Origin: Actinoplanes octamycinicus
Lineage (GTDB): Bacteria > Actinomycetota > Actinomycetes > Mycobacteriales > Micromonosporaceae
DNA length: 64,000 bases
Assembly: GCF_014205225.1 (NCBI RefSeq)
Contig: NZ_JACHNB010000001.1
Location: forward strand, 4,755,501 to 4,819,500
Direction of reading: 5' to 3'
Within the stretch, counting starts at the first letter, position 1, and each line of letters starts with the position of its first letter. The position numbers and the translations under genes are program-made. Below are positions 17,301 through 37,280 of the stretch, one piece after another. Under the pieces are notes generated by a model. It did no database searches. It worked only from the letters and a program-made list of their open reading frames with translations, and was not told the origin of the DNA.

Positions 17301-17325
17301 CACCTGCCCGGATCCCTTGCCAATC

Positions 17326-17344
17326 TCCTACGCAACCGATAGGA
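17326..17344. promoter_or_regulatory. Sulfur-regulon candidate operator, site 1
   Basis: TCCTACGCAACCGATAGGA is an imperfect inverted repeat, 26 bases upstream of the first flavin monooxygenase gene. Its right half CCGATAGGA matches the half-sites at 25496-25514 and 37262-37280. TTGCCA (17317-17322) and TAGGAA (17340-17345) lie 17 bases apart and could be the -35 and -10 of the same promoter, so the operator would overlap the promoter. Confidence 0.6.
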
Positions 17345-17370
17345 AAAAGAGGCAGGAGGGGAGGCCGCCG

Positions 17371-18645
17371 GTGCCCAAGCAGATCATCCTCGCCGCCCAC
17401 TTCCCGGGGGTGAACAACACCACGGTGTGGAGTGACCCGGCCGCGGGGAGTCAGATCGCGTTCGAGTCGTTCGAGCACCTGGCCCGCACCGCCGAGCGCG
17501 GGCGCTTCGACTTCTTCTTCCTGGCCGAGGGGCTACGACTGCGCGAGCAGCGCGGCCGGATCCACGACCTGGACGTGGTCGGCCGGCCGGACACGCTGAC
17601 CGTGCTCGCCGCGCTGGCCGCGGTGACCGAGCGCCTCGGCCTGGCCGGCACGCTGAACGCCACCTTCCACGAGCCGTACGAGCTGGCCCGCCAGCTCGCC
17701 ACCCTGGACCACCTCTCCGGCGGCCGGGCCGGGTGGAACGTGGTCACCTCGCACGGCGCGTTCTTCGGGGAGAACTTCCGGCGCGGCGGCTTCCTGGACC
17801 ACGCCGACCGCTACCGGCGGGCCGGCGAGTTCATCGAGGCGGCCCGCACGCTGTGGGACTCGGACGCCGGCGACTTCGAGGTGAGCAGCTCGCAGTTCGG
17901 CATCCGGGGCCGGTTCGGGGCGCCGCGCAGCCCGCAGGGCCGCCCGGTGATCATCCAGGCCGGCGACTCGTCCGAGGGCCGCGAGCTGGCCGCCCGGTAC
18001 GCCGACGCGATCTTCTCCCGGCACCACCGGCTCGACGACGCGCAGCGGTTCTACCGCGACGTGAAGGACCGGCTGGTCCGGTACGGCCGGGCCGAGCACG
18101 ACCTGAAGATCATCCCGGGGGTGTCCTACGTCCTGGGCGACACCGACGCGGACGCCCAGGAGCGGGCGCACCACATCCGGCGGCAGCAGGTCAGCCCGCA
18201 GACCGCGATCCTGCTGCTGGAGCAGCTGTGGAACCGGGATCTGTCCGGCTACGACCCGGACGGGCCGCTCCCCGAGGTGGACCCGCTGCTCGACGAGGAC
18301 GACACGATCATCAAGGGCCGGGCCGGGATGTACCCGGACCGGCTGCGCACCGCGGCCGAGTGGCGGGCGCTGGCCGAGGCGAAGAAGCTGTCGATCCGGG
18401 ACCTGATCATCGAGGTGACCGGCCGGCAGAACTTCATCGGCACCCCGGCGCGGGTCGCCGCCGAGCTCGACGCGTACGTGCAGGGCGACGCCTGCGACGG
18501 CTTCATCCTGGTGCCGCACCTGACCCCGACCGGACTCGACGACTTCGTCGACCGGGTCGTGCCCCTGCTGCAGGAGCGCGGGGTGTTCCGCACCGACTAC
18601 GAGACCACGACACTGCGGGGCCACCTCGGCCTCGGTGGGGACTGA
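17371..18645 (+). CDS. NtaA/SnaA/DszA-type flavin monooxygenase
   Basis: A 424-residue luciferase-like (TIM-barrel) reduced-flavin monooxygenase. Family hallmarks are ILAAHFPGVNNTTVW at the start, FDFFFLAEG near residue 50 and LDHLSGGRAGWNVVTS near 118. Relatives oxidise sulfones, sulfonates, nitrilotriacetate or pristinamycin precursors using FMNH2 from a separate reductase. The GTG at 17371 is chosen because AGGAGGGGAGG lies just before it, and longer starts would overlap the divergent gene. First gene of a three-monooxygenase operon behind operator site 1, which suggests use of organosulfur compounds. No flavin reductase gene is present in the window. Confidence 0.88.
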   Translation: MPKQIILAAHFPGVNNTTVWSDPAAGSQIAFESFEHLARTAERGRFDFFFLAEGLRLREQRGRIHDLDVVGRPDTLTVLAALAAVTERLGLAGTLNATFHEPYELARQLATLDHLSGGRAGWNVVTSHGAFFGENFRRGGFLDHADRYRRAGEFIEAARTLWDSDAGDFEVSSSQFGIRGRFGAPRSPQGRPVIIQAGDSSEGRELAARYADAIFSRHHRLDDAQRFYRDVKDRLVRYGRAEHDLKIIPGVSYVLGDTDADAQERAHHIRRQQVSPQTAILLLEQLWNRDLSGYDPDGPLPEVDPLLDEDDTIIKGRAGMYPDRLRTAAEWRALAEAKKLSIRDLIIEVTGRQNFIGTPARVAAELDAYVQGDACDGFILVPHLTPTGLDDFVDRVVPLLQERGVFRTDYETTTLRGHLGLGGD

Positions 18646-18647
18646 CC

Positions 18648-19745
18648 ATGGGCGTACCTCTCTCGGTTCTTGATCTGGCGCCGCTGGTGGCCGGCGGTGA
18701 CGTCGGCGACGCGCTGCGGCGCACGCTGGACCTGGCCCGGCGGGCCGAGCAGTTCGGCTACCACCGGTACTGGGTGGCCGAGCACCACTTCACGCCGGGC
18801 GTGGCGTCGGCTCAGCCGGCCCTGCTGCTCGGTCAGATCGCCGCGGTCACCGACCACATCCGGCTCGGGTCCGGCGCGGTGCAGACCGGCCACCAGACCG
18901 CGCTCTCCATCGTGGAGCAGTTCGGCCTGCTGGACGCGCTCTACCCGGGTCGCTTCGACCTGGGCCTGGGCCGTTCCGGACAGGCCAAGAGCGAGGCGTT
19001 GCGCCAGCAGCAGGCGGCGCAGCCGGCCGAGGCGCGTGAGGTCGGCGGCCTGCTGATCCCGAAGCACTTCTCCTGGGCGCCGATCTTCGCCTCCGACCGC
19101 AGCGCCCTGATCGGCCGCCTGCTGCAGCAGCCCGGCGCCGAGTCGCTGCCGCTCGGCGAGATCCTCGACCAGATCCAGGCGCTGCTGGCCGGGCCGTACT
19201 CGGACGGCAAGGGCAACGAGGTGACCGCGGTCCCCGGGGCCGGCGCCGACCTGCAGCTCTGGCTGCTGGGCAGCAGCGGCGGGGAGAGTGCGCGCACGGC
19301 CGGGGCACGGGGCCTGCCGTTCGTGGCGAACTACCACGTGGCGCCGGCCAAGGTGCTGGAGGCGGTGCAGGCGTACCGGTCGGCCGGCGGCAGGCACCTG
19401 ATGGTCTCGGCCGACGTGATCGTCGCCGAGGACGACGCGACCGCGCGGCGGCTGGCGCTGCCCTACGCGCTCTGGGTCCGCAGCATCCGGACCGGGCGCG
19501 GCGCGGTACCGTTCCCGACCATCGAGCAGGCGCTCTCGCACGAGTGGACGGACGCCGACCGGGCGCTGGTCGCCGACCGGGTGGACACCCAGTTCGCCGG
19601 GTCGCCGGCCACCGTCGCCGAGCGGCTGCGCACGCTGCGCGAGGTGACCGGCGCGGACGAGCTGCTGATCACCACGATCACCCATCGGCACAGCGACCGG
19701 GTCCGGTCGTTCGAGCTGCTGGCCAAGGAATGGGCGGTCCTCTGA
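18648..19745 (+). CDS. Luciferase-like flavin oxidoreductase, MsnO8-type
   Basis: A 365-residue luciferase-fold protein starting two bases after the previous stop. MGVPLSVLDLAPL and GYHRYWVAEHHFTPGVAS near residue 45, then IRLGSGAVQTGHQTA and YPGRFDLGLGR, are typical of the MsnO8-like branch of flavin-dependent oxidoreductases. The exact substrate is unknown. The position, between two other flavin monooxygenases, suggests successive or alternative oxidations of related organosulfur substrates. No visible defect in length or motifs. Confidence 0.87.
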   Translation: MGVPLSVLDLAPLVAGGDVGDALRRTLDLARRAEQFGYHRYWVAEHHFTPGVASAQPALLLGQIAAVTDHIRLGSGAVQTGHQTALSIVEQFGLLDALYPGRFDLGLGRSGQAKSEALRQQQAAQPAEAREVGGLLIPKHFSWAPIFASDRSALIGRLLQQPGAESLPLGEILDQIQALLAGPYSDGKGNEVTAVPGAGADLQLWLLGSSGGESARTAGARGLPFVANYHVAPAKVLEAVQAYRSAGGRHLMVSADVIVAEDDATARRLALPYALWVRSIRTGRGAVPFPTIEQALSHEWTDADRALVADRVDTQFAGSPATVAERLRTLREVTGADELLITTITHRHSDRVRSFELLAKEWAVL

Positions 19746-20623
19746 TGCTCCTGGCGATCGCCCTGGACGGCGCCTCGTTCGCCGCCGCCGACTGGGTCGG
19801 CGCGGTGCGCCAGGCCGACGAGGCCCGGATCGACCTGGTCACCTTCGACGACGACTTCGGCCGGCACGGCCCGGACGCAGTGCTGACCGCGGCCCGGGTG
19901 GCACCGCTGACCCGGCACGTCGGGCTGGTCCCGGTCGCCACCACCACGCACACCGAGCCGTTCCACCTGTCCACCGCGCTGGCCACCCTCGACCACGTCA
20001 GCCACGGCCGGGCCGGCTGGCAGGTCCGGGTCTCCGCCGACCCGGCCGAGGCGGCGCTGCTCGGCCGCCGGGCGCCGCTGGCCCGCGACGAGCTGTTCGC
20101 CGAGGCCGCCGACGCGATCGAGGTGGTCCGCCGGCTGTGGGACAGCTGGCAGCACGACGCGATCATCAAGGACGTGGCGACCGGCCGGTTCGTCGACCGG
20201 GACCGGCTGCACTACGCCGACTTCGCCGGGCGGTACTTCGCGGTCAAGGGCCCGTCGATCGTGCCGCGCCCGCCGCAGGGCAACCCGGTGGTGGCGGTGG
20301 CGCGGGGGGAGGCCCCGGACGACGCGGCCGACGTCGTGTTTGTCCCGGACGGCGAGGCCGGACCGCGGCCCGGCCGCAAGGTCTTCGCGGACTTGCCGGT
20401 CCGCGAGGGCGGCAATCGGGACGCGATGGTCCGGATCCTGGCCGCCGCGGAGCGCGGGGCGGACGGCGTGCGGCTGCGCGGCGACCCGCTCACGGTGATC
20501 CGTGACCTGGTCCCCGAGCTGCGCTGGCGCGGCCTGTTCCGCCCGTCCCGGGCCGCCACCCTGCGCGACCGCCTCGGTCTGCCGCCCGCCGTCAACCGCT
20601 ACGAGACGCCGATCCCGGCGTGA
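19745..20623 (+). CDS. Short luciferase-like monooxygenase
   Basis: A 292-residue protein whose ATG overlaps the previous stop as TGATG. LAIALDGASFAAADWVG at the start, FDDDFGRHGPDAV and LATLDHVSHGRAGWQVRVS place it in the luciferase-like family. It is about 70-130 residues shorter than its two operon partners, lacking much of the usual middle insertion. It ends LRDRLGLPPAVNRYE, a tail found in NtaA-like enzymes. It might be an accessory subunit or a minimal monooxygenase. It ends seven bases from a convergent gene. Confidence 0.82.
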   Translation: MLLAIALDGASFAAADWVGAVRQADEARIDLVTFDDDFGRHGPDAVLTAARVAPLTRHVGLVPVATTTHTEPFHLSTALATLDHVSHGRAGWQVRVSADPAEAALLGRRAPLARDELFAEAADAIEVVRRLWDSWQHDAIIKDVATGRFVDRDRLHYADFAGRYFAVKGPSIVPRPPQGNPVVAVARGEAPDDAADVVFVPDGEAGPRPGRKVFADLPVREGGNRDAMVRILAAAERGADGVRLRGDPLTVIRDLVPELRWRGLFRPSRAATLRDRLGLPPAVNRYETPIPA

Positions 20624-20630
20624 CGACCGG

Positions 20631-21572
20631 TCAGATCTCCAGGACCAGCTTGCCCCGGGTCCGGCCGGTGGCCAGCCGCCGGTGCGCCTCCCCGGCCTCG
20701 GCCAGGGGCAGCACCCCGGCCACCTCGACGTGCACCCGCCCGGCGTCGATCAGCGCGGCGATCTCGGCCAGCGCCGGCCCGTCCGGCTCGACCAGGAAGC
20801 CGATGGCCCGCACCCCGGCCTGCCCGGCCGCTTGGGACACCGCCGGCGAGACCCCGGACGGCACCGCGATCAGCAGCCCGCCGGGGGCCAGCGCGGCCAC
20901 CGAGCGCACCCCGGTGTCCTCGTCGCCGACCAGGTCGAGGACCACGTCGACGTCCTTGGCCACCTCCTCGAACCGGGTGGTGGTGTAGTCGACCAGCTCG
21001 TCCGCGCCGAGCGAGCGCAGCCATTCGTGCTTGTCCGCGCGGGCGGTCCCGATCACGTGTGCCCCGAGGTGCTTGGCGAACTGCACGGCGAAGTGCCCGA
21101 CCCCGCCGGCCGCCGCGTGCACCAGGACCCGCTGACCGGGACTGATCGTGGTGGCCGCGGTCAGCGCCTGCCACGCGGTGAGCGCCGCGAGGGGCACCGC
21201 CGCGGCAGCGGTGTGCCCGATGCCGGCCGGTTTGCGGGCGAAGTGCCGGGACGGCGCGGTCACGTACTCGGCGTAGCCGCCGGCCTGCCGGGGGAACCAC
21301 GGCATCCCGTAGACCTCGTCGCCGACGGCGAGGGTGTGCACGCCGAAGCCGACCTTCTCCACCACCCCGGACACGTCCCAGCCGAGGATGAACGGCGGCG
21401 CCCCGAGCACCCCGGCCATCCCGCCGCCTTCCCGGGTCTTGTGGTCCACCGGGTTGACGCCGGCGGCCACCACGCGGACCCGCACCTCGGTGGGCAGCGG
21501 CTCGGGGATCGGCACCTCGGCCACCCGGAGCACCTCGGGGCCGCCGAACTCCTGCTGTGTCACTGCTCGCAT
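20631..21572 (-). CDS. NADPH:quinone-type oxidoreductase (zinc-free MDR)
   Basis: A 313-residue medium-chain reductase. The N-terminal GroES-like domain has RVVAAGVNPVDHKTREG, and the Rossmann domain has the nucleotide motif HAAAGGVGHFAVQFAK near residue 150. Zinc-ligand cysteines are absent, so it is a quinone or enone reductase and not an alcohol dehydrogenase. ATG at 21572 is preferred; an in-frame GTG at 21584 is possible and neither has a clear ribosome site. It is divergent from an HxlR regulator, a common redox-stress pairing. Confidence 0.87.
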   Translation of the reverse strand: MRAVTQQEFGGPEVLRVAEVPIPEPLPTEVRVRVVAAGVNPVDHKTREGGGMAGVLGAPPFILGWDVSGVVEKVGFGVHTLAVGDEVYGMPWFPRQAGGYAEYVTAPSRHFARKPAGIGHTAAAAVPLAALTAWQALTAATTISPGQRVLVHAAAGGVGHFAVQFAKHLGAHVIGTARADKHEWLRSLGADELVDYTTTRFEEVAKDVDVVLDLVGDEDTGVRSVAALAPGGLLIAVPSGVSPAVSQAAGQAGVRAIGFLVEPDGPALAEIAALIDAGRVHVEVAGVLPLAEAGEAHRRLATGRTRGKLVLEI

Positions 21573-21658
21573 GTTGTTCTGCACGCCGCGAAAGCTATCC
21601 CCGAGGCGGTAGTTACCCGCAAGGGCGGCTACTATCTTTCGGTAACCAAGGAGGTCGG

Positions 21659-22018
21659 ATGACTGCGGTGTGCGCCACCGGCGAGCACGACAAGCACGAT
21701 GTCTACGCGGAGCTGTGCCCGTGCCGGGGTCTGCTCGACCTGATCGCGAACAAGTGGACCACCCTGGCGGTCGGCGCGCTGGAGGCCGGGCCGCTGCGCT
21801 TCGGCGCCCTGCAGCGGCACATGGAGGGGATCAGCCCGAAGGTGCTGACCCAGACCCTGCGCCGCCTGGAGGACGCCGGCCTGCTCACCCGCACGGTCTA
21901 CCCGGCGGTCCCGCTGCACGTGGAGTATGAGCTGACCCCGGTCGGCCGCAGCCTGACCGTCCCGCTGCGCGGCCTGCGCGAGTGGGCCGAGCGGCACCTC
22001 CACGAGCTGACCATCTAA
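21659..22018 (+). CDS. HxlR-family redox-type regulator
   Basis: A 119-residue winged-helix regulator with a strong AAGGAGG ribosome site five bases before the ATG. The HxlR core reads LLDLIANKWTTLAVGAL, then FGALQRHMEGISPKVLTQTLRRLEDAGL as the DNA-reading region. Cysteines at 5, 20 and 22 could sense electrophiles or oxidation, as in QorR- and HypR-like members. It is divergent from the quinone reductase, which it probably represses. GTAG-N16-CTAC and GGTAACC sequences between the two starts are possible binding sites. Confidence 0.88.
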   Translation: MTAVCATGEHDKHDVYAELCPCRGLLDLIANKWTTLAVGALEAGPLRFGALQRHMEGISPKVLTQTLRRLEDAGLLTRTVYPAVPLHVEYELTPVGRSLTVPLRGLREWAERHLHELTI

Positions 22019-22101
22019 AAGCGATTCTTTCGGTACGAGGTGAGCGTCCGCCTGCCGGCGCGGCCGGCCCGGCGAGCCGAGGAGAACCGTGGGTGCGCCG
22101 G

Positions 22102-23520: not shown

Positions 23521-23534
23521 GACCCCGATCTTGG

Positions 23535-24473: not shown

Positions 24474-24527
24474 GGCTTCAGCCTGCTCCCGGGGCATTGA
24501 TATGTCCAAGACACGTTCCCGATGGCA

Positions 24528-24548
24528 TTCATCGTGCGGCACGATGAA
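24528..24548. promoter_or_regulatory. LysR operator candidate (perfect 10-bp arms)
   Basis: TTCATCGTGC and GCACGATGAA form a perfect inverted repeat around a single G in the gap between the divergent aldo-keto reductase and lysR genes. It ends three bases before the proposed lysR GTG start. It also argues against the earlier ATG at 24522, which would put the site inside the gene. Confidence 0.7.
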
Positions 24549-24551
24549 CGG

Positions 24552-25436
24552 GTGGAGCTTCGACAACTCAGCTACGTGGAGGCGGTCGCCCGGTACGGCG
24601 GGTTCACCCGTGCCGCCGAGCGGCTGCACGTCGCCCAGTCGGCCGTCTCCGCACAGATCCGGGCGTTGGAGGCGGAGCTGGGCGTGACCCTGTTCGCCCG
24701 GACCACGCGGCGGGTGGCGCTGACCCCGGCCGGGGAGATGTTCGTGGCCCGGGCCCGCCGGGTGCTGGCCGAGCTGGACGGCGCCCGGCTGGAGATGGGT
24801 GAGATCACCGCGGTGGTGACCGGGCGGGTCACGGTCGGCGCGACCGCGGTGCTCGGGCCGTACGACCTGCCGAAGGCGCTGGCCCGGTTCCACGACCGGT
24901 TCCCCGGGATCGCGTTGCGGCTGCGGTCGGGGCTGATCACCGGGCTGCTCGGCGCGCTCGACGGCGGCGAGGTGGACCTGGTGATCGGCCCGGTGCACGC
25001 CGACCTGCCGGCCCGGTTCGAGGCGCTGCCCCTCGCGGACGAGCAGCTGGTGCTGGTGCTGCCGGTCGGGCATCCGCTGAGCGGGACCGGGCGGCTCACC
25101 CTCGGCGAGTTCCGCGACGAGGCGTTCGTCTGCCTGCCGGAGGGCAGCGGGCTGCGCTGGATCCTCGACGACGCGGCCCGGACCGCCGGGTTCGCGCCCC
25201 GGGTGCAGTTCGAGACGCACAGCCCGCAGAGCATCCGTGACCTGGTCGCGGCCGGGCTCGGGGTGGCGCTGCTGGCCCGGTCGGTGGCGGAGAGCCCGGA
25301 CGGGCCGGCGATCACCGTGCGGCAGCTGCACGCGCCGCCGGCGCACCCGCCGATCGGCATGATCCATCACCGGGACCGGCCGCTCACCCCGGCCGTGCAG
25401 GCCTGCCGGCACGTGATGACCTCCGACCTGTCCTGA
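24552..25436 (+). CDS. LysR-family transcriptional regulator
   Basis: A 294-residue regulator. The N-terminal winged helix (ELRQLSYVEAVARYGGFTRAAERLHVAQ-type, about 1-60) is followed by a periplasmic-binding-like effector domain from about 88. The GTG at 24552 matches the usual start point of the family (ELRQL). It probably controls the divergent aldo-keto reductase/GH43 pair and itself through the palindrome at 24528-24548. The sulfonate ABC operon starts 118 bases downstream, so regulation of that locus is also possible. The effector is unknown. Confidence 0.9.
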   Translation: MELRQLSYVEAVARYGGFTRAAERLHVAQSAVSAQIRALEAELGVTLFARTTRRVALTPAGEMFVARARRVLAELDGARLEMGEITAVVTGRVTVGATAVLGPYDLPKALARFHDRFPGIALRLRSGLITGLLGALDGGEVDLVIGPVHADLPARFEALPLADEQLVLVLPVGHPLSGTGRLTLGEFRDEAFVCLPEGSGLRWILDDAARTAGFAPRVQFETHSPQSIRDLVAAGLGVALLARSVAESPDGPAITVRQLHAPPAHPPIGMIHHRDRPLTPAVQACRHVMTSDLS

Positions 25437-25495
25437 CGCCGTTCACCGGGTTGTTCCAGGGAGCGGGACACCGGGCGCCCCCGTATTGCCATTAA

Positions 25496-25514
25496 CCCCA
25501 TCTGCACGATAGGA
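25496..25514. promoter_or_regulatory. Sulfur-regulon candidate operator, site 2
   Basis: CCCCATCTGCACGATAGGA is an imperfect inverted repeat 39 bases upstream of the sulfonate permease gene. The right half ACGATAGGA matches sites 1 and 3. TTGCCA (25486-25491) and TAGGAA (25510-25515), 18 bases apart, give the same promoter-like layout as at site 1. Confidence 0.6.
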
Positions 25515-25553
25515 ATACCAGGCATTCCGCGTACCCCCTGCCTGGAGTTCTCC

Positions 25554-26408
25554 GTGACCACCTTGCTTGCCCCGGCCTCCGCGCCGGAGAGCGCCGCCAA
25601 GCCGGCGCCGGCGCTCGCGCCCGGCGGCGGACTGCGCCGCCGGATCGCCCTGAGGCTGCTGGCGCTGCTCGCGCTGGGCGTTCTCTGGGAGCTCACGGCG
25701 CGGGCGCTGAACAACCCGGCCTTCATCCCGTCGCCCGGCGCGGTCTGGCGGCAGCTGATCCTCACCTCGACCACCCACGACGGCGTCCGCGGCTACAGCG
25801 GCCACCTGCTGATCGAGCACCTCGGGGTGAGCCTGCGCCGGATCGTGATCGGCTCGGCCATCGGCGTGGCCGGCGGCCTGGTCCTGGGCGTGCTGCTCGG
25901 CACGATCTCCTGGCTGCGGGTGATCGCCGAGCCGGTGGTCACCTTCGTCCGGGCGCTGCCCCCGCTGGCCTACTTCAGCCTGTTCATCATCTGGTTCGGC
26001 ATCGACGAGACCCCGAAGCTGTGGCTGCTCTCGATCGCCGCGCTGCCGCCGGTCGCGGTGGCCACCGCCGCCGCCGTGCACGGCGCGCCGTCCGGCCTGG
26101 TCGAGGCGGCCCGCGCGCTCGGCGCCGGCCGCTGGCAGACGATCCGCGACGTGGTGCTGCCCAGCGCGCTGCCGGAGATCTTCACCGGGGTCCGGCTCGC
26201 GGTCGGCGTCGCCTACTCGTCGGTGGTGGCCGCCGAGACGATCAACGGGGTGCCCGGGATCGGCGGCATGATCCGCGACGCGCAGCGCTACTCGCAGACC
26301 GACGTGGTCGTGCTCGGACTGTTCGCCATCGGCCTCTCCGGCCTGCTCATCGACGCCCTGCTGCGGATCGCTTCGGACAAGCTGATCCCGTGGCGCGGCA
26401 TTAGCTGA
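25554..26408 (+). CDS. ssuC: Sulfonate/taurine ABC transporter permease
   Basis: A 284-residue inner-membrane permease with about six membrane segments after a Pro/Ala-rich N-terminus. RALPPLAYFSLFIIWFG and the EAA loop EAARALGAGRWQTIRDVVLP (contacting the ATPase) are characteristic of the SsuC/TauC group. It imports aliphatic sulfonates or taurine; nitrate or cyanate relatives differ in these loops, but the substrate is inferred. GTG start. Order in the operon is permease, binding protein, ATPase, with short spacing or overlaps. Operator site 2 lies upstream. Confidence 0.85.
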   Translation: MTTLLAPASAPESAAKPAPALAPGGGLRRRIALRLLALLALGVLWELTARALNNPAFIPSPGAVWRQLILTSTTHDGVRGYSGHLLIEHLGVSLRRIVIGSAIGVAGGLVLGVLLGTISWLRVIAEPVVTFVRALPPLAYFSLFIIWFGIDETPKLWLLSIAALPPVAVATAAAVHGAPSGLVEAARALGAGRWQTIRDVVLPSALPEIFTGVRLAVGVAYSSVVAAETINGVPGIGGMIRDAQRYSQTDVVVLGLFAIGLSGLLIDALLRIASDKLIPWRGIS

Positions 26409-26418
26409 AAGAGTTGTT

Positions 26419-27438
26419 GTGAAAAAGCTGATCGCTGTCCTTTCCGTCCTCTTCCTCGCGGCCTGCGGCAACGGCGCCGCCGCCGGCGGGGGTGACGCCT
26501 CGAAGAAATCGATCCGGATCGCCTACCAGGCGTTCCCCAGCGGCGACCTGATCGTCAAGAACCAGGGGCTGCTGGAGAAGGCGCTGCCCGACTACAAGAT
26601 CACCTGGACCAAGTTCGACTCCGGCGCGTCGATCAACACGGCGTTCGTCGCGAAGAGCCTGGACATCGCGGCGATCGGCTCCAGCCCGGTGGCGCGCGGG
26701 CTGTCCGCGCCGCTCAACATCCCCTACCAGGTCGCCTTCGTGCTCGACGTGGCCGGGGACAACGAGGCGCTGGTCGCCCGCAACGGCAGCGGGGTCACCG
26801 ACATCGCCGGGCTCAAGGGCAAGAAGGTGGCCACGCCGTTCGCCTCGACCGCGCACTACAGCCTGCTCGCGGCGCTGGCCGGGGCCGGCGTCAAGGAGTC
26901 CGAGGTGAACATCGTCGACCTGGAGCCGCAGGACATCCAGGCGGCGTGGACCCGGGGGGACCTGGACGCGGCGTACACCTGGCTGCCCTCGCTCGACGAG
27001 CTGAAGAAGACCGGCAAGGTGCTGATCAGCAGCCGGCAGCTGGCCACCGCCGGCAAGCCCACCCTGGACCTGGGCGTGGTGGACACCGCGTTCGCGCAGG
27101 CGCACCCGGAGGCGGTCGACGCCTGGCGCAAGGCCGAGTCGCAGGCCCTGGACCTGATCGCGAACGACCCGGCGGCCGCGGCCAAGGCGGTCGGCGCCGA
27201 GCTCAACCTCTCCGCCGACGACGCGCTCAACCAGCTCAAGCAGGGCGTCTTCCTGAAGCCGGCGGACATCAGCTCGCCGGAGTGGCTGGGCACCGAGGGC
27301 AACGTCGGCAAGCTCGCCGACAACCTGGTCAGCGCGGCCGAGTTCCTCAAGTCGCAGCAGAAGATCGACGCGGTGCCGGCGCTCGCCGACGTGCAGAAGG
27401 CGATCTACGTGAAGGGCCTGCCCGGTGTCCTCGGCTGA
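26419..27438 (+). CDS. ssuA: Sulfonate/taurine ABC substrate-binding lipoprotein
   Basis: A 339-residue binding protein. A lipoprotein signal peptide MKKLIAVLSVLFLAAC gives lipidation at Cys16, followed by a flexible Gly/Ala linker. The mature part is a two-lobe SsuA/TauA fold: IRIAYQAFPSGDLIVKNQGL, IAAIGSSPVARGLSAP and the LKGKKVATPFAS region that lines the sulfonate pocket. It sits on the outer face of the membrane and delivers ligand to the permease. GTG start with no strong ribosome site, ten bases after ssuC. Taurine specificity is as likely as alkanesulfonate. Confidence 0.85.
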   Translation: MKKLIAVLSVLFLAACGNGAAAGGGDASKKSIRIAYQAFPSGDLIVKNQGLLEKALPDYKITWTKFDSGASINTAFVAKSLDIAAIGSSPVARGLSAPLNIPYQVAFVLDVAGDNEALVARNGSGVTDIAGLKGKKVATPFASTAHYSLLAALAGAGVKESEVNIVDLEPQDIQAAWTRGDLDAAYTWLPSLDELKKTGKVLISSRQLATAGKPTLDLGVVDTAFAQAHPEAVDAWRKAESQALDLIANDPAAAAKAVGAELNLSADDALNQLKQGVFLKPADISSPEWLGTEGNVGKLADNLVSAAEFLKSQQKIDAVPALADVQKAIYVKGLPGVLG

Positions 27439-28195
27439 GACCCCGGCGGACGCGGTCGTCCTGGACGCGGTGACGCACTCCTACGGGGACGTCACCGCGG
27501 TCGGGCCGGTCGATCTGACCGTGCCGGCCGGCGAGTTCCTGGTCCTGGTCGGCGCGTCCGGCTGCGGCAAGAGCACGCTGCTGCGCCTGATCGCCGGCTT
27601 CGAGCAGCCCACCTCGGGCACGGTGCGGACCGCCGGGTCCGCGCCGCTGCCCGGGCGCGGGGCCGGCCTGGTCTTCCAGCAGCCCCGGCTGTTCCCGTGG
27701 AAGACCGTCGGCGGCAACATCGAGCTGGCCCTGCGCTACGCCGGCCAGCCGGTCTCCCCGGCCCGGGTCGACGAGTTGCTCGCCCGGGTCGGCCTGCACG
27801 ACGTGGCCAAGCGCCGCACCTGGCAGATCTCCGGCGGTCAGCAGCAACGGGTGGCGATCGCCCGCGCCCTCGCCGTGGACAACCCGCTGCTGCTGCTCGA
27901 CGAGCCGTTCGCCGCGCTGGACGCGCTCACCCGGGAACGCCTGCAGGCCGACCTGCGCCAGGTCAGCGCCGCCTCCGGCCGCACCTGCGTGTTCGTCACG
28001 CACAGCGTCGACGAGGCGATCTTCCTGGGCAGCCGGGTCGTGGTGCTCACCCCGCGCCCCGGCACCATCGCCCTGGACCTGCCGATCGACCTGCCCCGCA
28101 CCGGCGTCCCGGCCGACGAACTGCGCGGCTCCGCCGAGTTCGCCGCCCTGCGCGCCGAGGTCGGCCACGCCATCCGGGACCGCGTCCCCACCTGA
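27425..28195 (+). CDS. ssuB: Sulfonate/taurine ABC transporter ATPase
   Basis: A 256-residue ATPase overlapping the binding-protein gene by 14 bases. Walker A is GASGCGKST, the signature is SGGQQQRVAIARAL, Walker B is LLLLDEPF and the switch His lies in VFVTHSVDEA. It powers import through SsuC. The spacing confirms a single ssuCAB-type transcription unit. No further gene follows on this strand before a large hairpin. Confidence 0.88.
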   Translation: MSSAETPADAVVLDAVTHSYGDVTAVGPVDLTVPAGEFLVLVGASGCGKSTLLRLIAGFEQPTSGTVRTAGSAPLPGRGAGLVFQQPRLFPWKTVGGNIELALRYAGQPVSPARVDELLARVGLHDVAKRRTWQISGGQQQRVAIARALAVDNPLLLLDEPFAALDALTRERLQADLRQVSAASGRTCVFVTHSVDEAIFLGSRVVVLTPRPGTIALDLPIDLPRTGVPADELRGSAEFAALRAEVGHAIRDRVPT

Positions 28196-28328
28196 CCGCC
28201 GCCCACCCCCGGTCCGCTTCCCGCGTTCCGGGTACGCCGGTACGCCCGTCCCGTCCGTGCCCGCCCGCGCCCGTCCGCGCCCGTCCGCGAGGCGGTCCCG
28301 GTGCGAGGTGGCCGCGCGCTCCCGGTCC

Positions 28329-28383
28329 CGGCTGGTCCTCACGGGTGTCTCGCCGACGGCGAGACACCCGTGAGGACCAGCCG
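28329..28383. terminator. 26-bp perfect hairpin between convergent genes
   Basis: Arms of 26 bp (28329-28354 and 28358-28383) surround the loop GAC. It lies between the convergent ssuB and GGDEF-EAL genes, so bidirectional termination is the simplest role. The core ACGGGTGTCTCG with its complement recurs in the hairpin at 59051-59103, which argues for a repeat family. The rest of 28196-28461 holds no gene. Confidence 0.75.
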
Positions 28384-28461
28384 AGGTTCGGTGGCGCGTC
28401 GCGGTCTCGCGCCGGGACCACCTCGCGTGAGGGTCTCGGGGATGGCGCTGGTGGCAGCCGG

Positions 28462-30759: not shown

Positions 30760-30820
30760 GCTCCACCGCCTTCAGGTCACCGTGCCTGATCGGTGGATGT
30801 GGACGGGATCTGAGAAAAAG

Positions 30821-30860
30821 TGCGGGCGTGACACGTCCCCCGGTCCGTGTCACGCCCGCA
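30821..30860 (-). terminator. Intrinsic terminator of the alpha-glucosidase gene
   Basis: A 15-bp perfect stem (30821-30835 and 30846-30860, TGCGGGCGTGACACG on one side) has a 10-base loop. Read on the minus strand it is followed by CTTTTTCTC, a strong termination signal. A second hairpin (CCCACCCGC with GCGGGTGGG) lies between it and the stop codon. Confidence 0.9.
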
Positions 30861-30902
30861 GCACCCGCCCACCCGCACCGTCCGCGGGTGGGTGGGACGG
30901 TT

Positions 30903-32582: not shown

Positions 32583-32605
32583 GGCGAGGAACGGTAGCAG
32601 GCAAC

Positions 32606-32617
32606 TAACACGTGTTA
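32606..32617. promoter_or_regulatory. Perfect 12-bp palindrome upstream of alpha-glucosidase
   Basis: TAACACGTGTTA with a central CG, 24 bases before the alpha-glucosidase start, resembles a LacI-family half-site pair. It lies between the glucosidase and lacI genes. Confidence 0.5.
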
Positions 32618-32643
32618 CATAGTCTGACGGCTGCTTTCTTTCA

Positions 32644-32657
32644 GCAAGTTCTTGCAG
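32644..32657. promoter_or_regulatory. Maltose-type LacI operator candidate
   Basis: GCAAGTTCTTGCAG (CTGCAAGAACTTGC on the other strand) has GCAAG/CTTGC arms and lies 62 bases upstream of the alpha-glucosidase start. CTGCAAGAACTT recurs inside the start of the lacI gene at 33695-33706. The CTTGCAG element resembles sites described for Streptomyces maltose/starch regulators, as far as I recall. Confidence 0.55.
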
Positions 32658-32664
32658 AGCGGTC

Positions 32665-33744
32665 TTATGCCGGATTTGTAGCGGAATCCCGGACGATCAG
32701 CGAGGTGCCGAGCATCTGGTGCGGGTGCTGGTCCTCGCCCCGGATCGCGGAGATCAGGAAGTCGGCGGCGATCCGGCCCTTGGTCACGATCGGCTGCCGC
32801 ACGGTGGTCAGCCGGGGACGGAACCAGGCCGACTCGGCGAGGTCGTCGAAACCGGTCACCGAGACCTCGTCCGGCACGGCCACCCCCAGGTCCTGCAGGG
32901 CGTCCACGGCGCCGTAGGCCAGGACGTCGGAGAGGGCGAGGATGGCGCTCGGCGGCTCGCCGGACATCAGCTCCCGGGTCGCCTTGTAGCCGTCGGCGCG
33001 GGTCACCGGCACCTCGGCCACCCGCACGTCGTCGAGGGTCAGCCCCACCTCGGCGAGCGCGTCGGTGATCCCGGCCAGCCGCCGGGCGAGCGGTCCCCGA
33101 TGCCCCGGGTCCGCCGCCGGCCGCGGCCCGATGGACAGCACCGCGAGCCGCCGATGACCGAGCTCCAGCAGGTAGCGGGCCACGTCCCGGGCGCCGCCGC
33201 GGTCATCCACCTCGACGTGCGGCGCGCCCTCGTGCCGGTCCGAGTCGATCAGCACGAACGGGATGCCGCGCCGATCCAATTCGGCCACCTCGCCCCGGTC
33301 GATCTCCAGCCCGCAGACGATGAAGCCGTCCACCGCGGCGTACGGGATCGCCTTGAGCACCGAGTCCTGCAGCGGCGGGGTGAGCAGCAGCGTGTAGCCC
33401 TCCCGGTCGCACACCTGCCCGGCGCCCATCAGGAACCGCGAGTAGTACGGGTTCTCCAGGATCTGCGCCAGCCCCTGCGGCAGCAGCACCCCGATCGAGT
33501 TGGTGGTCCCGGCCTGCAGCATCCGGCCCAGCGTGTTCGGCGTGTAGCCGAGCTCCTCGGCGACCGCGAGGATCCGCTCCCTGGTCGCGGTGGAGATCCG
33601 CTGCGGGTTGTTGAACGCGAAGGAGACCGCCGAGCGGGACACCCCGGCGGCCGCCGCGACGTCGGTGGAGGTGGGCTTGCCGGGCTTGGTCTTGAAAGTT
33701 CTTGCAGGAGCCTTCGAGGCGCTGCTCGGCTTCCTCGGCGGCAT
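32665..33744 (-). CDS. LacI-family regulator of alpha-glucoside use
   Basis: A 359-residue repressor. A basic Lys/Pro/Ala-rich tail (1-25) precedes the helix-turn-helix TSTDVAAAAGVSRSAVSFAFN (about 25-48) and the hinge, then a sugar-binding domain to the end (IGVLLPQGL, DGFIVCGLE, VSVTGFDDLAES). It probably represses the downstream alpha-glucosidase and responds to a maltose-like sugar. ATG at 33744 has AGGGAG seven bases before. Codons 10-16 (GCT CCT GCA AGA ACT TTC AAG) are strikingly atypical for this genome and contain an operator-like sequence. Confidence 0.9.
   Translation of the reverse strand: MPPRKPSSASKAPARTFKTKPGKPTSTDVAAAAGVSRSAVSFAFNNPQRISTATRERILAVAEELGYTPNTLGRMLQAGTTNSIGVLLPQGLAQILENPYYSRFLMGAGQVCDREGYTLLLTPPLQDSVLKAIPYAAVDGFIVCGLEIDRGEVAELDRRGIPFVLIDSDRHEGAPHVEVDDRGGARDVARYLLELGHRRLAVLSIGPRPAADPGHRGPLARRLAGITDALAEVGLTLDDVRVAEVPVTRADGYKATRELMSGEPPSAILALSDVLAYGAVDALQDLGVAVPDEVSVTGFDDLAESAWFRPRLTTVRQPIVTKGRIAADFLISAIRGEDQHPHQMLGTSLIVRDSATNPA
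33691..33708. promoter_or_regulatory. Operator-like sequence inside the lacI coding start
   Basis: CTTGAAAGTTCTTGCAGG lies within codons 10-16 of lacI and shares AAGTTCTTGCAG with 32646-32657. The rare codons GCA, AGA and ACT found here suggest the DNA sequence, and not the protein sequence, is conserved. Autoregulation is the likely role. Confidence 0.5.
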
Positions 33745-33787
33745 GCACGCTCCCTGGGGTCGGCGCCCACCATAACCCAGGCCGGTA

Positions 33788-33812
33788 CGCACCCCCGGTG
33801 ACCGGGGGTGCG
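33788..33812 (-). terminator. Hairpin after the GH15 gene
   Basis: CGCACCCCCGGT pairs with ACCGGGGGTGCG around one base, seven bases past the GH15 stop on the minus strand. A T-run is lacking, so it may act as a GC-type terminator. Confidence 0.6.
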
Positions 33813-33818
33813 GCGCGC

Positions 33819-35702
33819 TCAGGCGCCGGGCGACGGTGGCAGCACGGTGTGCCGCCGGGCCGCGGCTCGCGGATAGCGGTCCAGCTGCCGGTCCAGGGTG
33901 ACCGCGGCGTCGATCAGCGACAGGTGGGTGAACGCCTGCGGGAAGTTGCCCAGCTGCTCGCCGGTCAGCCCGATCTCCTCCGAGTAGAGGCCGAGGTGGT
34001 TGGCGTAGGTCAGCATCTTCTCGAAGGTCACCCGCGCCTTGTCCAGCTCGCCGGCGCCGGCCAGCGCGGTCACGTACGCGAACGTGCACAGCGAGAAGGT
34101 GCCCTCCGAGCCGCGCAGGCCGTCCGGCGACGCGGCCGGGTCGTACCGGTAGACCAGGCTGTCGGTGACCAGCTCGCTCTCCATGGCCCGCAGGGTGGAG
34201 AGCCACCGCGGGTCGTGCGGCGTGACGAACCCGACGGTCGGCATCCGCAGCAGCGACGAGTCCAGCACGTTGGTGTCGTAGTGCTGGCGGAACGCCTGCC
34301 GGGCCGGGCTCCAGCCACGCTCCATGATCTCGGTGTAGATCGCGTCGCGCTGCCGGCGCCACTCGTCCAGCGGGGCCGGGCGGCCGTGCTCGGCGGCGAT
34401 CCGCAGTCCGCGGTCCAGGGCCACCCAGCACATCAGCCGGCCGTAGGTGAAGTCCTGCCGCCCGCCTCGGGTCTCCCAGATGCCCTCCTCCGGCTGCGCC
34501 CAGTTGGCCGCCACCCAGTCGAGCATGTGCCGGATCGCCTGCCAGCCCTCGTGCCCGGGGACGATCCCGTGGCGCTGGCCGACGTAGATGCTGTCCATCG
34601 CCTCGCCGTAGATGTCCAGCTGCAGTTGCCCGGCGGCGCCGTTGCCGATCCGCACCGGGCTCGAGCCGCGGTAGCCGGACCAGTGCGGCAGCGTCTCCTC
34701 GATCAGGTCGCTCGACCCGTCCACCCGGTACATGATCTGCAGCGGGCCGGTCGGATCCTTCTCGGCCTGCTCGAACACCCGGTCGCGCAGCCAGCGGCCG
34801 AGCGCCGCCGCCTCGTCGCTGAAGCCCAGCGACAGCAGCGAGTACACCGAGAACGAGGCGTCGCGCACCCAGGTGTAGCGGTAGTCCCAGTTGCGCTCGC
34901 CGCCGACCTGCTCGGGCAGCGCCGCGGTGGGCGCCGCGACCAGCCCGCCGGTCGGCGCGTAGGTCATCAGCTTGATCGTGATCGCCGCCCGGTGGACCAT
35001 CTCGCGCCAGCGCCCCTGGTAGGTGCAGCCGCTCAGCCAGGACTCCCAGAAGTCCACCGTCTCGTCGAGCAGCCGCAGCGCCTCGGTCAGCGGGAACTGG
35101 GTCAGCGGGGCGGCCGGCCCAATCTCCAGCACCAGCCCGCGCCGCTGGCCGGCCCGCAGCTGCAGCTCGGCCCGCACGTCGCCGTCGCTGTCCACCCAGG
35201 ACCGGCCGGGCTCCTCGAACGGCTCGCGGATCAGGCGTACGGTAAGCGCCTCCTTGTCGGTCTCGAAGAGCACCGCCTGGTCGGTCGCGCGGGTCCGGAA
35301 CGGGTCCCGGCCGTAACCGAAGCGCGGCGCGATGTGCACCGCGAAGGTCATCTCGCCGCGCACGCAGCGCACCAGCCGGACCAGCCGGTGCCGGTCGGTC
35401 GCCGTGGTGCTGTCCGAGATCGGCATGAAGTCGACGATCTCGCCGACCCCGGTGTCGGTCATGAACCGGGTGACCAGCACCGCGCTGTCCGGCAGGTAGA
35501 GCTGCTTGGCGGTGAACGCCTCGGTGGCCGGTCGGGTGATCAGATGACCGCCGCGCCCGGCGTCCAGCAGCGCCCCGAAGACGCTGGGCGAGTCGAAGCG
35601 CGGCGCGCAGAACCAGTCGACGGTGCCGTCGGTGGCGACCAGCGCAGCGGTCTGCAGGTCACCGATCAGCCCGTGTTCGGCGATGGGTGGGAAGTCCGGC
35701 AT
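33819..35702 (-). CDS. Glycoside hydrolase family 15 (trehalase/glucoamylase-like)
   Basis: A 627-residue enzyme with the N-terminal beta-sandwich (ALVATDGTVDWFCAPRFDSPS near residue 20) and the (alpha/alpha)6 barrel from about 230. WDYRYTWVRDASFSVYSLL and the catalytic-type Glu regions GIWETRGG and YSEEIG are visible. Actinobacterial members include trehalases, so trehalose or maltooligosaccharide may be the substrate. ATG at 35702 is chosen because the 57 bases upstream, although open, have AT-rich third positions unlike the gene. No signal peptide. It lies beside a maltose-type locus and may share its metabolism. Confidence 0.85.
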   Translation of the reverse strand: MPDFPPIAEHGLIGDLQTAALVATDGTVDWFCAPRFDSPSVFGALLDAGRGGHLITRPATEAFTAKQLYLPDSAVLVTRFMTDTGVGEIVDFMPISDSTTATDRHRLVRLVRCVRGEMTFAVHIAPRFGYGRDPFRTRATDQAVLFETDKEALTVRLIREPFEEPGRSWVDSDGDVRAELQLRAGQRRGLVLEIGPAAPLTQFPLTEALRLLDETVDFWESWLSGCTYQGRWREMVHRAAITIKLMTYAPTGGLVAAPTAALPEQVGGERNWDYRYTWVRDASFSVYSLLSLGFSDEAAALGRWLRDRVFEQAEKDPTGPLQIMYRVDGSSDLIEETLPHWSGYRGSSPVRIGNGAAGQLQLDIYGEAMDSIYVGQRHGIVPGHEGWQAIRHMLDWVAANWAQPEEGIWETRGGRQDFTYGRLMCWVALDRGLRIAAEHGRPAPLDEWRRQRDAIYTEIMERGWSPARQAFRQHYDTNVLDSSLLRMPTVGFVTPHDPRWLSTLRAMESELVTDSLVYRYDPAASPDGLRGSEGTFSLCTFAYVTALAGAGELDKARVTFEKMLTYANHLGLYSEEIGLTGEQLGNFPQAFTHLSLIDAAVTLDRQLDRYPRAAARRHTVLPPSPGA

Positions 35703-35742
35703 GGGGTCAGCATCCGGTGTGACGACCGATCCGGCCTCATGC

Positions 35743-35768
35743 GTTACGGATGAAGTCATCCCGGGTAT
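35743..35768 (+). promoter_or_regulatory. SigB-like stress promoter candidate for csbD
   Basis: GTTACG (35743-35748) and GGGTAT (35763-35768) are 14 bases apart. This resembles the GNNT...GGGTA(C/T) promoters of actinobacterial SigB-type stress sigma factors. It lies 42 bases before the csbD start and outside the GH15 gene on the other strand. Confidence 0.5.
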
Positions 35769-35810
35769 CAGCGAGGTCGAGAAGGACCACGATCCCCGCG
35801 GAGGTGTGCG

Positions 35811-35984
35811 ATGGCTTTCGATGACAAGGTCGACAACAAGGCCGAGGAAGTCGGCGGCAAGGTCAAGGAAGGCGTCGGCAAGGCCACCGATGACGAGCAG
35901 CTCGAGGCCGAGGGCAAGGCGGACCAGACCAGCGCCAACGTCAAGCAGGCCGGCGAGAAGATCAAGGACATCTTCAAGTCCTGA
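35811..35984 (+). CDS. CsbD-family stress protein
   Basis: A 57-residue highly charged protein, MAFDDKVDNKAEEVGGKV to the end EKIKDIFKS. The repeated Lys/Gly/Glu pattern (GGKVKEGVGKATDDEQLEAEG-type) is the CsbD signature. It is probably soluble and partly disordered. Its role is unknown beyond general stress in relatives. GGAGGTG five bases before the ATG gives a strong start. A SigB-like promoter precedes it and a clear terminator follows, so it is a single-gene unit. Confidence 0.88.
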   Translation: MAFDDKVDNKAEEVGGKVKEGVGKATDDEQLEAEGKADQTSANVKQAGEKIKDIFKS

Positions 35985-35999
35985 TCGGATGCGTGGAGC

Positions 36000-36030
36000 C
36001 GGGCCGGGGCGATGCGCCCCGGCCCGTTCT
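36000..36030 (+). terminator. Terminator after csbD
   Basis: CGGGCCGGGGC (36000-36010) pairs with GCCCCGGCCCG (36016-36026) around GATGC, followed by TTCTCAT. It lies between convergent genes. Confidence 0.85.
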
Positions 36031-37253
36031 CATGCGGCGGTGACCGGCACCCGGACCACGGCGTCGAACAGGTAGCCCAGGGTGTTGTACCGGGCCACCT
36101 CGGGCTGGGTGGCGCCGTGCACGTCGGTGGCCCGGGCCAGCAGCTCGTGGGCGCCCGCGGCCGGCCGCCAGTCCAGCGCCCACTGCTGCCAGGCGCCGTC
36201 CCGGGACGGCCCGGTGAACCGGGCGCGCCGCCACGTCGCCCCGCCGTCGGTGCTCACCTCGACCGTGCGGATCCGCCCGCCGGCCGACCAGGACCGGCCG
36301 GTCAGCGTCACCCGGCGCCCGGCAGCGACCGTGGCCCCCGGGTCCAGCTCGAACGCGCTCTTGATCACCTGGCGGTCGAACGGCTGCCCCTCGGCCGGGA
36401 AGTCCGGCCCGAACAGCCGGTACCACTGGGTGTTCCACGGCGAGAAGAGCGGCTCGGCGGAGACCTCGATCCGCCCGACCCACTTGATGTTGGCGATGCC
36501 GATCCAGTGCGGGACGATCACCCGGACCGGGTGGCCGTGGTCGGCGGGCAGCGGCTCGCCGTTCATCTCGTAGGCCAGCAGCACGTCGTCGAAGGCCTTG
36601 GCGATCGGGAACGGGCGGCGCACCGGGCCCAGGTCGACGCCGCCGGTCACGTAGTTCGGATCCAGGCCGCTGGGCTGCACGTCGACCGCGTCCCGGCGGA
36701 CCCCGGCGCGGCGCAGCACGGTCGACAGCCGGACGCCACGCCAGCGGGCGACACCCACGCCGCCCAGGCCCCAGGCCGTACCGGAAACGGTCTGGCCCTG
36801 CTGCGAGCTGAAGTAGCCGCGGCCGTTGCCGGCGCACTCGACGGTGACCACCCGGGTCTCGGCCGGCAGGCGGCGCAGATCCCGGAGGCTGAAGTGCGCG
36901 GCGTCGCCGCGCAGACCGGAGCCGGACACCTCGAGGCTCCAGGACGCGGCGTCGATGACCGGCGTGCTGGTGTGGTTGCGCACGAAGAACCGGTCGATCG
37001 GGACCACGTAGCCCTGGTCCCTCAGCGCCGACCACCGGGTCTCCGCGTTGGTGCCGAGGACCCGGAACAGCTCCGGCGGCAGCGGCTTGACGATCGGCGC
37101 GCCGGCCGCCGCGGCCGGGGCGGACGGCAGGCCCGCGGCGCCCGCACCGACCGCCGCGGCCAGGGCGAACAGGTCGCGGCGGGAGAATCCCCGGGCCCGG
37201 CCGGCCAGGAGATCGCGCAGCCGGGTCGCGTCGTATGCAGCCTCATCGATCAT
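36030..37253 (-). CDS. Sulfite oxidase (molybdopterin), Tat-exported
   Basis: A 407-residue molybdenum enzyme that oxidises sulfite to sulfate. A twin-arginine signal (GFSRRDLFALAAAVGAGAAG, about 22-41) directs folded export. The Mo-ligand Cys is in VTVECAGNGRGYFSS (about residue 140). The domain order is Mo-cofactor domain (about 60-270) then dimerisation domain (about 290-400, with the usual WSAGGRIRTVEVSTDGG). It is divergent from ssuD with 47 bases between, sharing operator site 3. This fits removal of the sulfite set free by sulfonate cleavage. The electron acceptor is unknown. Confidence 0.9.
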   Translation of the reverse strand: MIDEAAYDATRLRDLLAGRARGFSRRDLFALAAAVGAGAAGLPSAPAAAAGAPIVKPLPPELFRVLGTNAETRWSALRDQGYVVPIDRFFVRNHTSTPVIDAASWSLEVSGSGLRGDAAHFSLRDLRRLPAETRVVTVECAGNGRGYFSSQQGQTVSGTAWGLGGVGVARWRGVRLSTVLRRAGVRRDAVDVQPSGLDPNYVTGGVDLGPVRRPFPIAKAFDDVLLAYEMNGEPLPADHGHPVRVIVPHWIGIANIKWVGRIEVSAEPLFSPWNTQWYRLFGPDFPAEGQPFDRQVIKSAFELDPGATVAAGRRVTLTGRSWSAGGRIRTVEVSTDGGATWRRARFTGPSRDGAWQQWALDWRPAAGAHELLARATDVHGATQPEVARYNTLGYLFDAVVRVPVTAA

Positions 37254-37261
37254 GGCAGGGA

Positions 37262-37280
37262 TCCTATCGAGCCGATGGGA
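37262..37280. promoter_or_regulatory. Sulfur-regulon candidate operator, site 3
   Basis: TCCTATCGAGCCGATGGGA is a near-perfect inverted repeat (TCCYATCG-AGC-CGATRGGA) in the 47-base gap between the divergent sulfite oxidase and ssuD genes. It is the most symmetrical of the three sites. Read toward the sulfite oxidase gene, its AGGA also lies where a ribosome site would be. Confidence 0.65.

Follow-up and report, generated by a model that had tools for sequence, protein, structure and literature searches.

Which protein recognises the palindrome that recurs in front of three separated sulfur-related loci of Actinoplanes octamycinicus, and which genes might it control? The window analysed here is a stretch of 64,000 nucleotides (NCBI RefSeq assembly GCF_014205225.1, contig NZ_JACHNB010000001.1, positions 4,755,501 to 4,819,500 of the forward strand), in which an earlier note had pointed out three aligned 19-mers (17326-17344, 25496-25514 and 37262-37280) and proposed a candidate sulfonate regulon, knowing of no named regulator for the motif. 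Our computational analysis suggests, with a probability of roughly 0.7, that TAAnCCTATCnnnnnGATAGGAATT serves throughout the genus as operator for a regulon of sulfur scavenging and is most likely bound by the Rrf2-family protein encoded at G000:C1:915823-916236 of the same genome; a candidate regulator can now be proposed for the motif. The names TauA, SsuD, SsuE, TauD, SorA and EgtA denote the best-matching family, with scores under the NCBIfam cut-offs.

The proposed operator and its conservation

All three 19-mers were found exactly at these positions, and the half-site pattern NCGATRGGA, read from the sequence, fits four of the six half-sites. Statistics confined to the window do not separate the motif from chance, as the word CGATRGGA is not rarer than chance (6 matches, 3.99 expected) and a loose palindrome with three mismatches gives 7 matches against 4.09 expected; the evidence was therefore taken from phylogeny instead. 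Promoters of the permease (25554), the first monooxygenase (17371) and the ssuD-type gene (37301) were collected from 60 genomes of the genus and the order, 30 loci each, with L078 left out of the promoter scan. A 25-column matrix was trained on these promoters, so that the counts of promoter conservation given below include the training set; 45 of 53 non-redundant sites entered the alignment and model, those left out being five reverse readings of the same places and three single sites. A leave-own-out matrix built from 52 promoter sites of other genomes, with the A. octamycinicus genome and its closest relative excluded, ranked the three sites at the top of the window with 28.8, 24.8 and 19.4 bits, followed by a match of 12.7 bits, whereas the reversed matrix reached 10.7 bits at best in the window and 25 simulated windows gave at most 17.8.

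Within about 230 bp of the gene, a site of at least 19.6 bits was present in 27 of the 30 permease promoters and one of at least 22 bits in 29 of the 30 ssuD-type promoters. No site was found near the match in L045, L048 and L049 of the permease set, L048 having one about 280 bp upstream, or in L100 of the ssuD set. The first monooxygenase is the exception to this conservation: only the own genome and its nearest relative (L051, 32.6 bits) have the site directly upstream (2/29 scanned), six further loci have it 1.0-1.23 kb upstream, and the remaining ones have none within 1.5 kb. Over 363 kb of orthologous loci the matrix matched 99 times with 16 bits or more, a site read in both orientations counting twice, whereas the reversed matrix never reached this score. 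The consensus over 181 unique strong sites is the 25-bp imperfect palindrome given above, with a dyad correlation of 0.88 over 25 bp versus 0.58 for the best direct repeat. The shared palindrome is real and better supported than the earlier note had claimed; it spans 25 bp, with the 19-mer as its core. Its distance from gene starts is variable and both orientations occur.

At sites 1 and 2, TTGCCA and TAGGAA are spaced by 17 and 18 bp, as the earlier note had read them, and TTGCC and ATAGGAA recur in many promoters orthologous to that of site 2. Operator 3 lies 18-42 bp before the leaderless-type ATG of the ssuD-type gene, and the arrangement of TAGG(G/C)T, six nucleotides and ATG recurs in many orthologues of this gene. 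The overlap of the operators with putative promoter elements at all three sites (Table 1) would fit a repressor.

The predicted regulon

Matches in the genome of A. octamycinicus are not placed at random relative to sulfur genes: a search with a sequence-only covariance model gave nine distinct places, eight of them at sulfur-type genes, and a pattern allowing up to two mismatches gave 11 places, seven at sulfur-type genes. The model search, which began with a quick first look, did not list site 1 or the site of the Rrf2 gene, and was complemented by patterns and fetched stretches. Twenty stretches of the genome, chosen by us, were read by matrix and Pfam; 14 of them contain a site of at least 19 bits, at 15 places in all outside the window, of which ten are at sulfur-type genes (Table 1). 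As judged by the motif, the predicted regulon includes cysteine and sulfur genes as well as ssu, and the SsuA protein of the Rrf2 operon passes the NCBIfam cut-off of its family (204 versus 163.5). The link with sulfur proposed earlier is supported, while the label "sulfonate" is too narrow, since the site is also found at genes for sulfatase, cysteine dioxygenase, flavin reductase and an EgtA-like protein.

Among 40 genomes of the genus, a pattern with at most one mismatch, which was designed on promoters of the kind searched, gave 82 forward and 87 reverse matches versus 2 and 3 for the backwards control. Forty stretches around such matches, chosen by us, were compared with 28 labelled proteins of the own genome (E up to 1e-10), and 33 contained a relative of at least one of them, some distant in sequence or position; seven contained none. 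Recurrent near the sites in these stretches were EgtA-like genes, cysteine dioxygenase, the flavin mononucleotide (FMN) reductase with an OmpR-type gene, sulfatases, the sulfite oxidase family, Rrf2-ssuABC and monooxygenases. Relatives of the window sulfatase, 67-68% identical, again have the site upstream in two relatives (L247, L256).

The predicted regulon proteins are poor in cysteine and methionine, as expected for sulfur starvation. The median of Cys+Met was 0.74 per 100 residues for 27 predicted regulon proteins versus 2.10 for 143 others (Mann-Whitney p 3.6e-7), in a comparison within the own genome for which the regulon list was chosen by us, the others being the remaining called open reading frames of the window and of the same 20 stretches; a permease reading of L120 with an internal stop (wrong start) was kept in the count. 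In the window, the importer and the monooxygenases (25554-28195, 17371-20623) contain 0.3-0.8 such residues per 100 and seven unrelated neighbours 0.9-3.1; the TauA-like protein has a single one in 339. The avoidance of sulfur-rich proteins under sulfate starvation was inferred for Rhodococcus (PMC8557817).

A cysteine-free Rrf2 protein as candidate regulator

The Rrf2-family gene is the first gene of an Rrf2-ssuABC operon and has the same operator in front of it, by which the system is predicted to be autoregulated. Its product of 137 residues belongs to the Rrf2 superfamily (PF02082, 108.3 bits, cut-off 30; TIGR00738, 108.8 bits, cut-off 73.3) and falls below the NCBIfam equivalogs CymR (65.1 bits, cut-off 195) and IscR (73, cut-off 207) as well as below the cut-offs of RirA and NsrR. 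Similarity to structures in the PDB is no better for CymR (2.9e-12, 4.2e-11) than for IscR (1.2e-12). Across ten aligned orthologues the protein has no cysteine, so that it would hold no Cys-ligated cluster, as in a cluster-free sensor.

Orthologues with 77-99% identity occur at 35 places of the genus, in 34 of the 36 genus genomes searched. Their promoters were not used in training the matrix, and in all 30 fetched genus orthologues a site of at least 19 bits lies 28-70 bp upstream of the Rrf2 gene, where the reversed matrix gave none at 15 bits; one further Rrf2 copy also has a site (20.2 bits). Among the best 80 of 104 named Rrf2 loci, 51 have a site of at least 18 bits and 47 have an SsuA-like gene downstream, the site being present in 47 of these 47. 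In 27 of 28 Micromonospora loci (65-74% identical), which have another gene context, neither the site nor the ssu operon was seen, the operon not being judgeable in three of them with less than 0.3 kb of DNA downstream; the same holds for one Streptomyces locus. Both are present in the 28th Micromonospora locus, that of M. rosaria. In Plantactinospora endophytica and two Virgisporangium species the site occurs with an SsuB-like gene downstream of Rrf2, and a third Virgisporangium has a match of 17.0 bits. The relatives, where a name is shown, are called "Rrf2 family protein", "Rrf2 family transcriptional regulator" or "putative transcriptional regulator".

As a separate observation, the site accompanies each of the two Rrf2 copies of Actinoplanes sp. 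NBRC 103695 (L331, L340), and SsuA-like genes lie downstream of only one of them.

Weighing the alternatives

Several results weigh against the assignment to Rrf2 or against the regulon as a whole. In the own genome, a pattern with up to three mismatches gave 23/21 matches where its backwards control gave 13/12, and with a looser pattern used before it the numbers were 51 and 38, a mild excess in both cases; five of the 15 strong places outside the window have no clear sulfur neighbour or are not annotated, and an ssu-type locus at 5.73 Mb has a site of only 17.9 bits. A sulfur-poor composition is not shared by the sulfatase of the window, by the AHSA1 protein or by two members of the Rrf2 operon, SsuB and SsuC. 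One genus genome (G021) has no Rrf2 orthologue, only a 47% identical paralogue, yet keeps the site before its OmpR-type gene and a 22.2-bit site before an ssuD paralogue. In family f13 strong sites stand at sulfur-type genes; one genome of this family was examined for its five Rrf2-like genes, and none of them has a site nearby. Across 24 genomes outside the genus, sites were found in two of 13 with a good Rrf2 homologue and in one of 11 without (16.6 bits). Furthermore, Rrf2 may activate its targets instead of repressing them.

In the main rival, which we consider unlikely, the operator is bound by an orphan OmpR/PhoB-type winged-helix protein, encoded divergently from the SsuE-like FMN reductase gene (Table 1), and Rrf2 is merely a member of the regulon. 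The OmpR-type gene has a site of at least 17 bits between -400 and +150 of the match start in 27 of 30 fetched orthologues, a count that likewise speaks against Rrf2, and three f13 genomes (L375, L376, L378) have a site before such a gene; moreover, the probable reading of the protein, 170 residues long, is free of Cys and of internal Met. However, OmpR/PhoB proteins characteristically bind direct repeats, and the symmetry of the operator is that of an inverted repeat (0.88), its resemblance to a direct repeat being weak (0.58). The f13 proteins are alike only across the common DNA-binding domain, and at ten of the 30 OmpR-type loci the reversed matrix also gave 17.2-20.5 bits at the same place, which makes this control less clean; the sites at the promoters of the Rrf2 gene itself are at least as consistent (30/30).

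Quite improbable in our estimate is an older sulfur box common to two cysteine-free Rrf2 paralogues, of which the widespread one, 48% identical to the ssu-linked protein, would alone read it in G021 and outside the genus. The copy of this paralogue in the own genome has no cysteine; of 24 non-genus genomes, 13 have a homologue of 44-55% identity that may represent the same paralogue, among them G036 (family f2) and G047 (family f13), which also have sites; and in G116 an Rrf2 gene of 50% identity has a 24.6-bit site at a distance of about 0.8 kb; in Rhodococcus, an Rrf2/CymR-type protein found only in organosulfur-grown cultures was proposed as a global sulfur regulator (PMC8557817). Against it, no site lies near this paralogue in the own genome, no site precedes the gene in any of 14 scanned non-genus Rrf2 regions (the sole match in L279 scores 12.4 bits and is about 1.6 kb away), and the presence of sites and of such homologues is uncorrelated in this small sample. 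That the sites are look-alike sigma-70-type promoter elements (TTGCCA/TAGGAA) with no specific regulator seems to us very improbable: TAGGAA and TAGGAT do fit a -10 element and the simple word is not rare in the window, but the information of the 25-bp dyad lies in both half-sites, placement is variable and in both orientations, and sites are concentrated before sulfur genes with the reversed matrix or pattern almost absent. A sigma-factor-only reading was rejected on account of the dyad symmetry and the variable placement.

Relation to known regulators and possible mechanism

The preferred reading, binding by the ssu-linked Rrf2 protein, is best understood as a sulfur switch that resembles CymR without being its orthologue, built on an Rrf2 protein with an operator of its own. 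The candidate half-site resembles the CymR consensus, which we take to be ATWGGAATT, and the spacing of the operator is presumably wider than in that consensus. CymR of Bacillus subtilis and Staphylococcus is likewise an Rrf2 protein with a sulfur regulon that includes ssu genes, and the candidate likewise lacks the cysteines of an iron-sulfur (Fe-S) protein; unlike CymR, it misses the CymR equivalog and its predicted regulon serves organosulfur scavenging. In Bacillus, CymR acts together with CysK to repress ssu and cysteine genes (PMC3828012). IscR, NsrR, RirA and RsrR share the superfamily and inverted-repeat operators, that of Streptomyces RsrR being an 11-3-11 repeat, also of 25 bp (PMC5015018), but they are Fe-S regulators, whereas the candidate has no cysteine at all and a different gene set.

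A parallel within the actinobacteria is the CymR/Rrf2 protein IGTS8_peg394 of Rhodococcus qingshengii, which was detected only in dibenzothiophene-grown cells, together with parts of a Tau-type transporter, TauD, a sulfatase and EgtA, and was proposed as a global sulfur regulator; its own gene neighbourhood is without sulfur genes, and the accessible part of that article gives no operator or motif-based regulon (PMC8557817). A CymR homologue was also suggested as a possible dsz repressor in Rhodococcus (PMC9426449). In the open-access literature, no paper recognisable by its title or the start of its abstract dealt with the motif or with an Rrf2 sulfur regulon in Actinoplanes. Sulfonate and sulfur-assimilation genes are also controlled by SsuR, CysR and McbR of Corynebacterium glutamicum and by CysB and Cbl of enterobacteria, which are ROK, TetR and LysR proteins, not Rrf2. 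The protein types of CysB, Cbl and McbR are given in PMC8557817, and CysR is the subject of PMC2580772.

With sufficient sulfate or cysteine, an Rrf2 dimer would block transcription from the operator, which at sites 1 and 2 overlaps the -10/-35 region and at site 3 a leaderless promoter. Under sulfur starvation, a metabolite signal would release Rrf2, which by analogy with CymR could be rising O-acetylserine and the loss of the CysK partner. Release would then switch on sulfonate and taurine import, FMNH2-dependent desulfonation, sulfatases, flavin reductase and the operon of the regulator itself.

We put forward only tentatively, and hold to be doubtful, a wider scenario of a sulfate/cysteine-starvation switch of actinomycetes, in which a cysteine-free Rrf2 lineage, non-orthologous to CymR, would have taken the role of CymR independently. 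The second copy in Actinoplanes would have captured ssuABC and come to regulate itself, the older paralogue would read the box in other families, where its targets might include the desulfurization genes that sulfate represses in rhodococci, and regulator and targets would have been purged of sulfur residues. Biodesulfurization genes of Rhodococcus are repressed by sulfate, methionine and cysteine, by a mechanism described as not settled (PMC9426449).

Comparative genomics alone sufficed to link a motif spotted by eye in three places with a candidate regulator, and it yields a concrete operator, a predicted regulon and a candidate protein that can be put to the test. If correct, the assignment adds a sulfur role to the cysteine-free actinobacterial Rrf2 branch, and the motif could be used for finding sulfur-scavenging genes of unknown function.

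Genes at the three sites

The sulfur-related units of the earlier note are right in kind, with three Bac_luciferase-family proteins at site 1, an ABC importer at site 2 and a divergent pair of a sulfite-oxidase-family and an ssuD-type gene at site 3. The best NCBIfam match of the importer binding protein is TIGR01729 (223 bits, under the cut-off of 304), and the molybdopterin sulfite-oxidase-family protein scores 192 bits with the SorA model, under the cut-off of 600.

A LysR gene beside site 2 (24522-25436) was set aside as regulator, because it is apparently divergent from an aldo/keto reductase gene and passed no NCBIfam cut-off among 25 of 53 families shown, and because nine of the 30 permease loci instead have a second, opposite-facing site in the upstream region. 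In nine relatives (L022-L029, L046) a second site of the AACATATTAG..CGATAGGACTTGT type lies 97-142 bp upstream of the permease start and is turned toward a divergent gene. On that side of L205 there is an SsuB-like ATPase gene.

Table 1. Operators, putative promoter elements and genes in the window (window positions), followed by places elsewhere in the genome of A. octamycinicus.
Feature	Position	Strand	Remarks
Sulfatase-family gene, divergent from operator 1	15462..17303	-	PF00884, 32.5 bits, cut-off 25
Putative monooxygenase operon promoter	17317..17345	+	TTGCCA 17317-17322, TAGGAA 17340-17345; 17-bp spacer overlapped by operator 1; predicted from consensus
Operator 1, 25-bp dyad	17323..17347	none	core 17326-17344; 19.4 bits, leave-own-out matrix
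NtaA/DmoA-family FMN-dependent monooxygenase, first of three Bac_luciferase genes	17371..18645	+	PF00296; TIGR03860, 379.8 bits, cut-off 279.7
Two more luciferase-like monooxygenase genes	18642..20623	+	PF00296; ~18642-19745 and ~19742-20623, starts approximate
Putative promoter at operator 2	25486..25515	+	TTGCCA 25486-25491, TAGGAA 25510-25515; 18-bp spacer over operator 2
Operator 2	25493..25517	none	core 25496-25514; 28.8 bits; kept before permease orthologues
Taurine/sulfonate-type ABC importer	25554..28195	+	permease 25554-26408, binding protein 26419-27438, ATPase 27425-28195; Pfam
Molybdopterin sulfite-oxidase-family protein	36030..37253	-	PF00174/PF03404
Putative leaderless-type -10 TAGGAT inside operator 3	37251..37266	-	7 nucleotides before ATG 37253 of the sulfite-oxidase-family gene
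Operator 3, common to the divergent pair	37259..37283	none	core 37262-37280; 24.8 bits; kept before ssuD orthologues
Putative leaderless-type -10 TAGGCT	37289..37301	+	TAGGCT 37289-37294, 6 nucleotides before ATG 37301
SsuD-type alkanesulfonate monooxygenase family	37301..38446	+	PF00296; TIGR03565, 447 bits, under cut-off 518
Rrf2-family regulator, then SsuA, ATPase and permease genes	915763		26.9 bits
Place without clear sulfur neighbour	1035644		Maf-like gene 1 kb away
Cysteine dioxygenase	2274133		26.6 bits
EgtA-like ligase	4483656		28.2 bits
NMT1-type binding protein gene	4621292		23.7 bits
Place without evident sulfur link	5270084 (L122:6084)		31.8 bits; between GntR-UTRA gene and AHSA1/ArsR-type pair
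SsuD paralogue divergent from nitroreductase	5274799		23.6 bits
TauD-family gene	5895050		27.4 bits
Place of at least 19 bits, not annotated	7222070
Flavin reductase	8348553		22.9 bits
Sulfatase	8607232		27.5 bits
Place without clear sulfur neighbour	8923477 (L127:5477)		clear palindromic site, no recognisable gene start adjoining
SsuA-permease-ATPase-monooxygenase operon (second sulfonate-type operon)	9145104		33.4 bits
Place without clear sulfur neighbour	9211379		SBP_bac_5
Rrf2 paralogue 2 (widespread)	G000:C1:10250446		48% identical to the ssu-linked Rrf2
Orphan OmpR-type DNA-binding protein	G000:C1:10267594-10268229 (L121:5592-6230)		no receiver domain found; divergent from SsuE-like FMN reductase
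FMN reductase divergent from orphan OmpR-type gene	10268172		34.3 bits

Sites beyond the genus

A search across the order gave matches in 14 of 81 genomes, too sparse to decide on the regulator. In genomes of another genus of the same family as A. octamycinicus (L443, L444), perfect copies of the palindrome stand beside a DegT-family aminotransferase and a major facilitator superfamily transporter, with no obvious sulfur locus. A site precedes an FMN reductase in two genomes of family f2 and stands near the start of a rhodanese gene in one genome of family f10. The sites of family f13 lie at a pyridoxal phosphate enzyme of Cys/Met metabolism, at luciferase-like monooxygenases and at an OmpR-type gene. 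In L440, of the same family, a site precedes a ROK-family regulator adjoining TauD- and SsuA-like genes, which recalls the ROK sulfur regulators of Corynebacterium.

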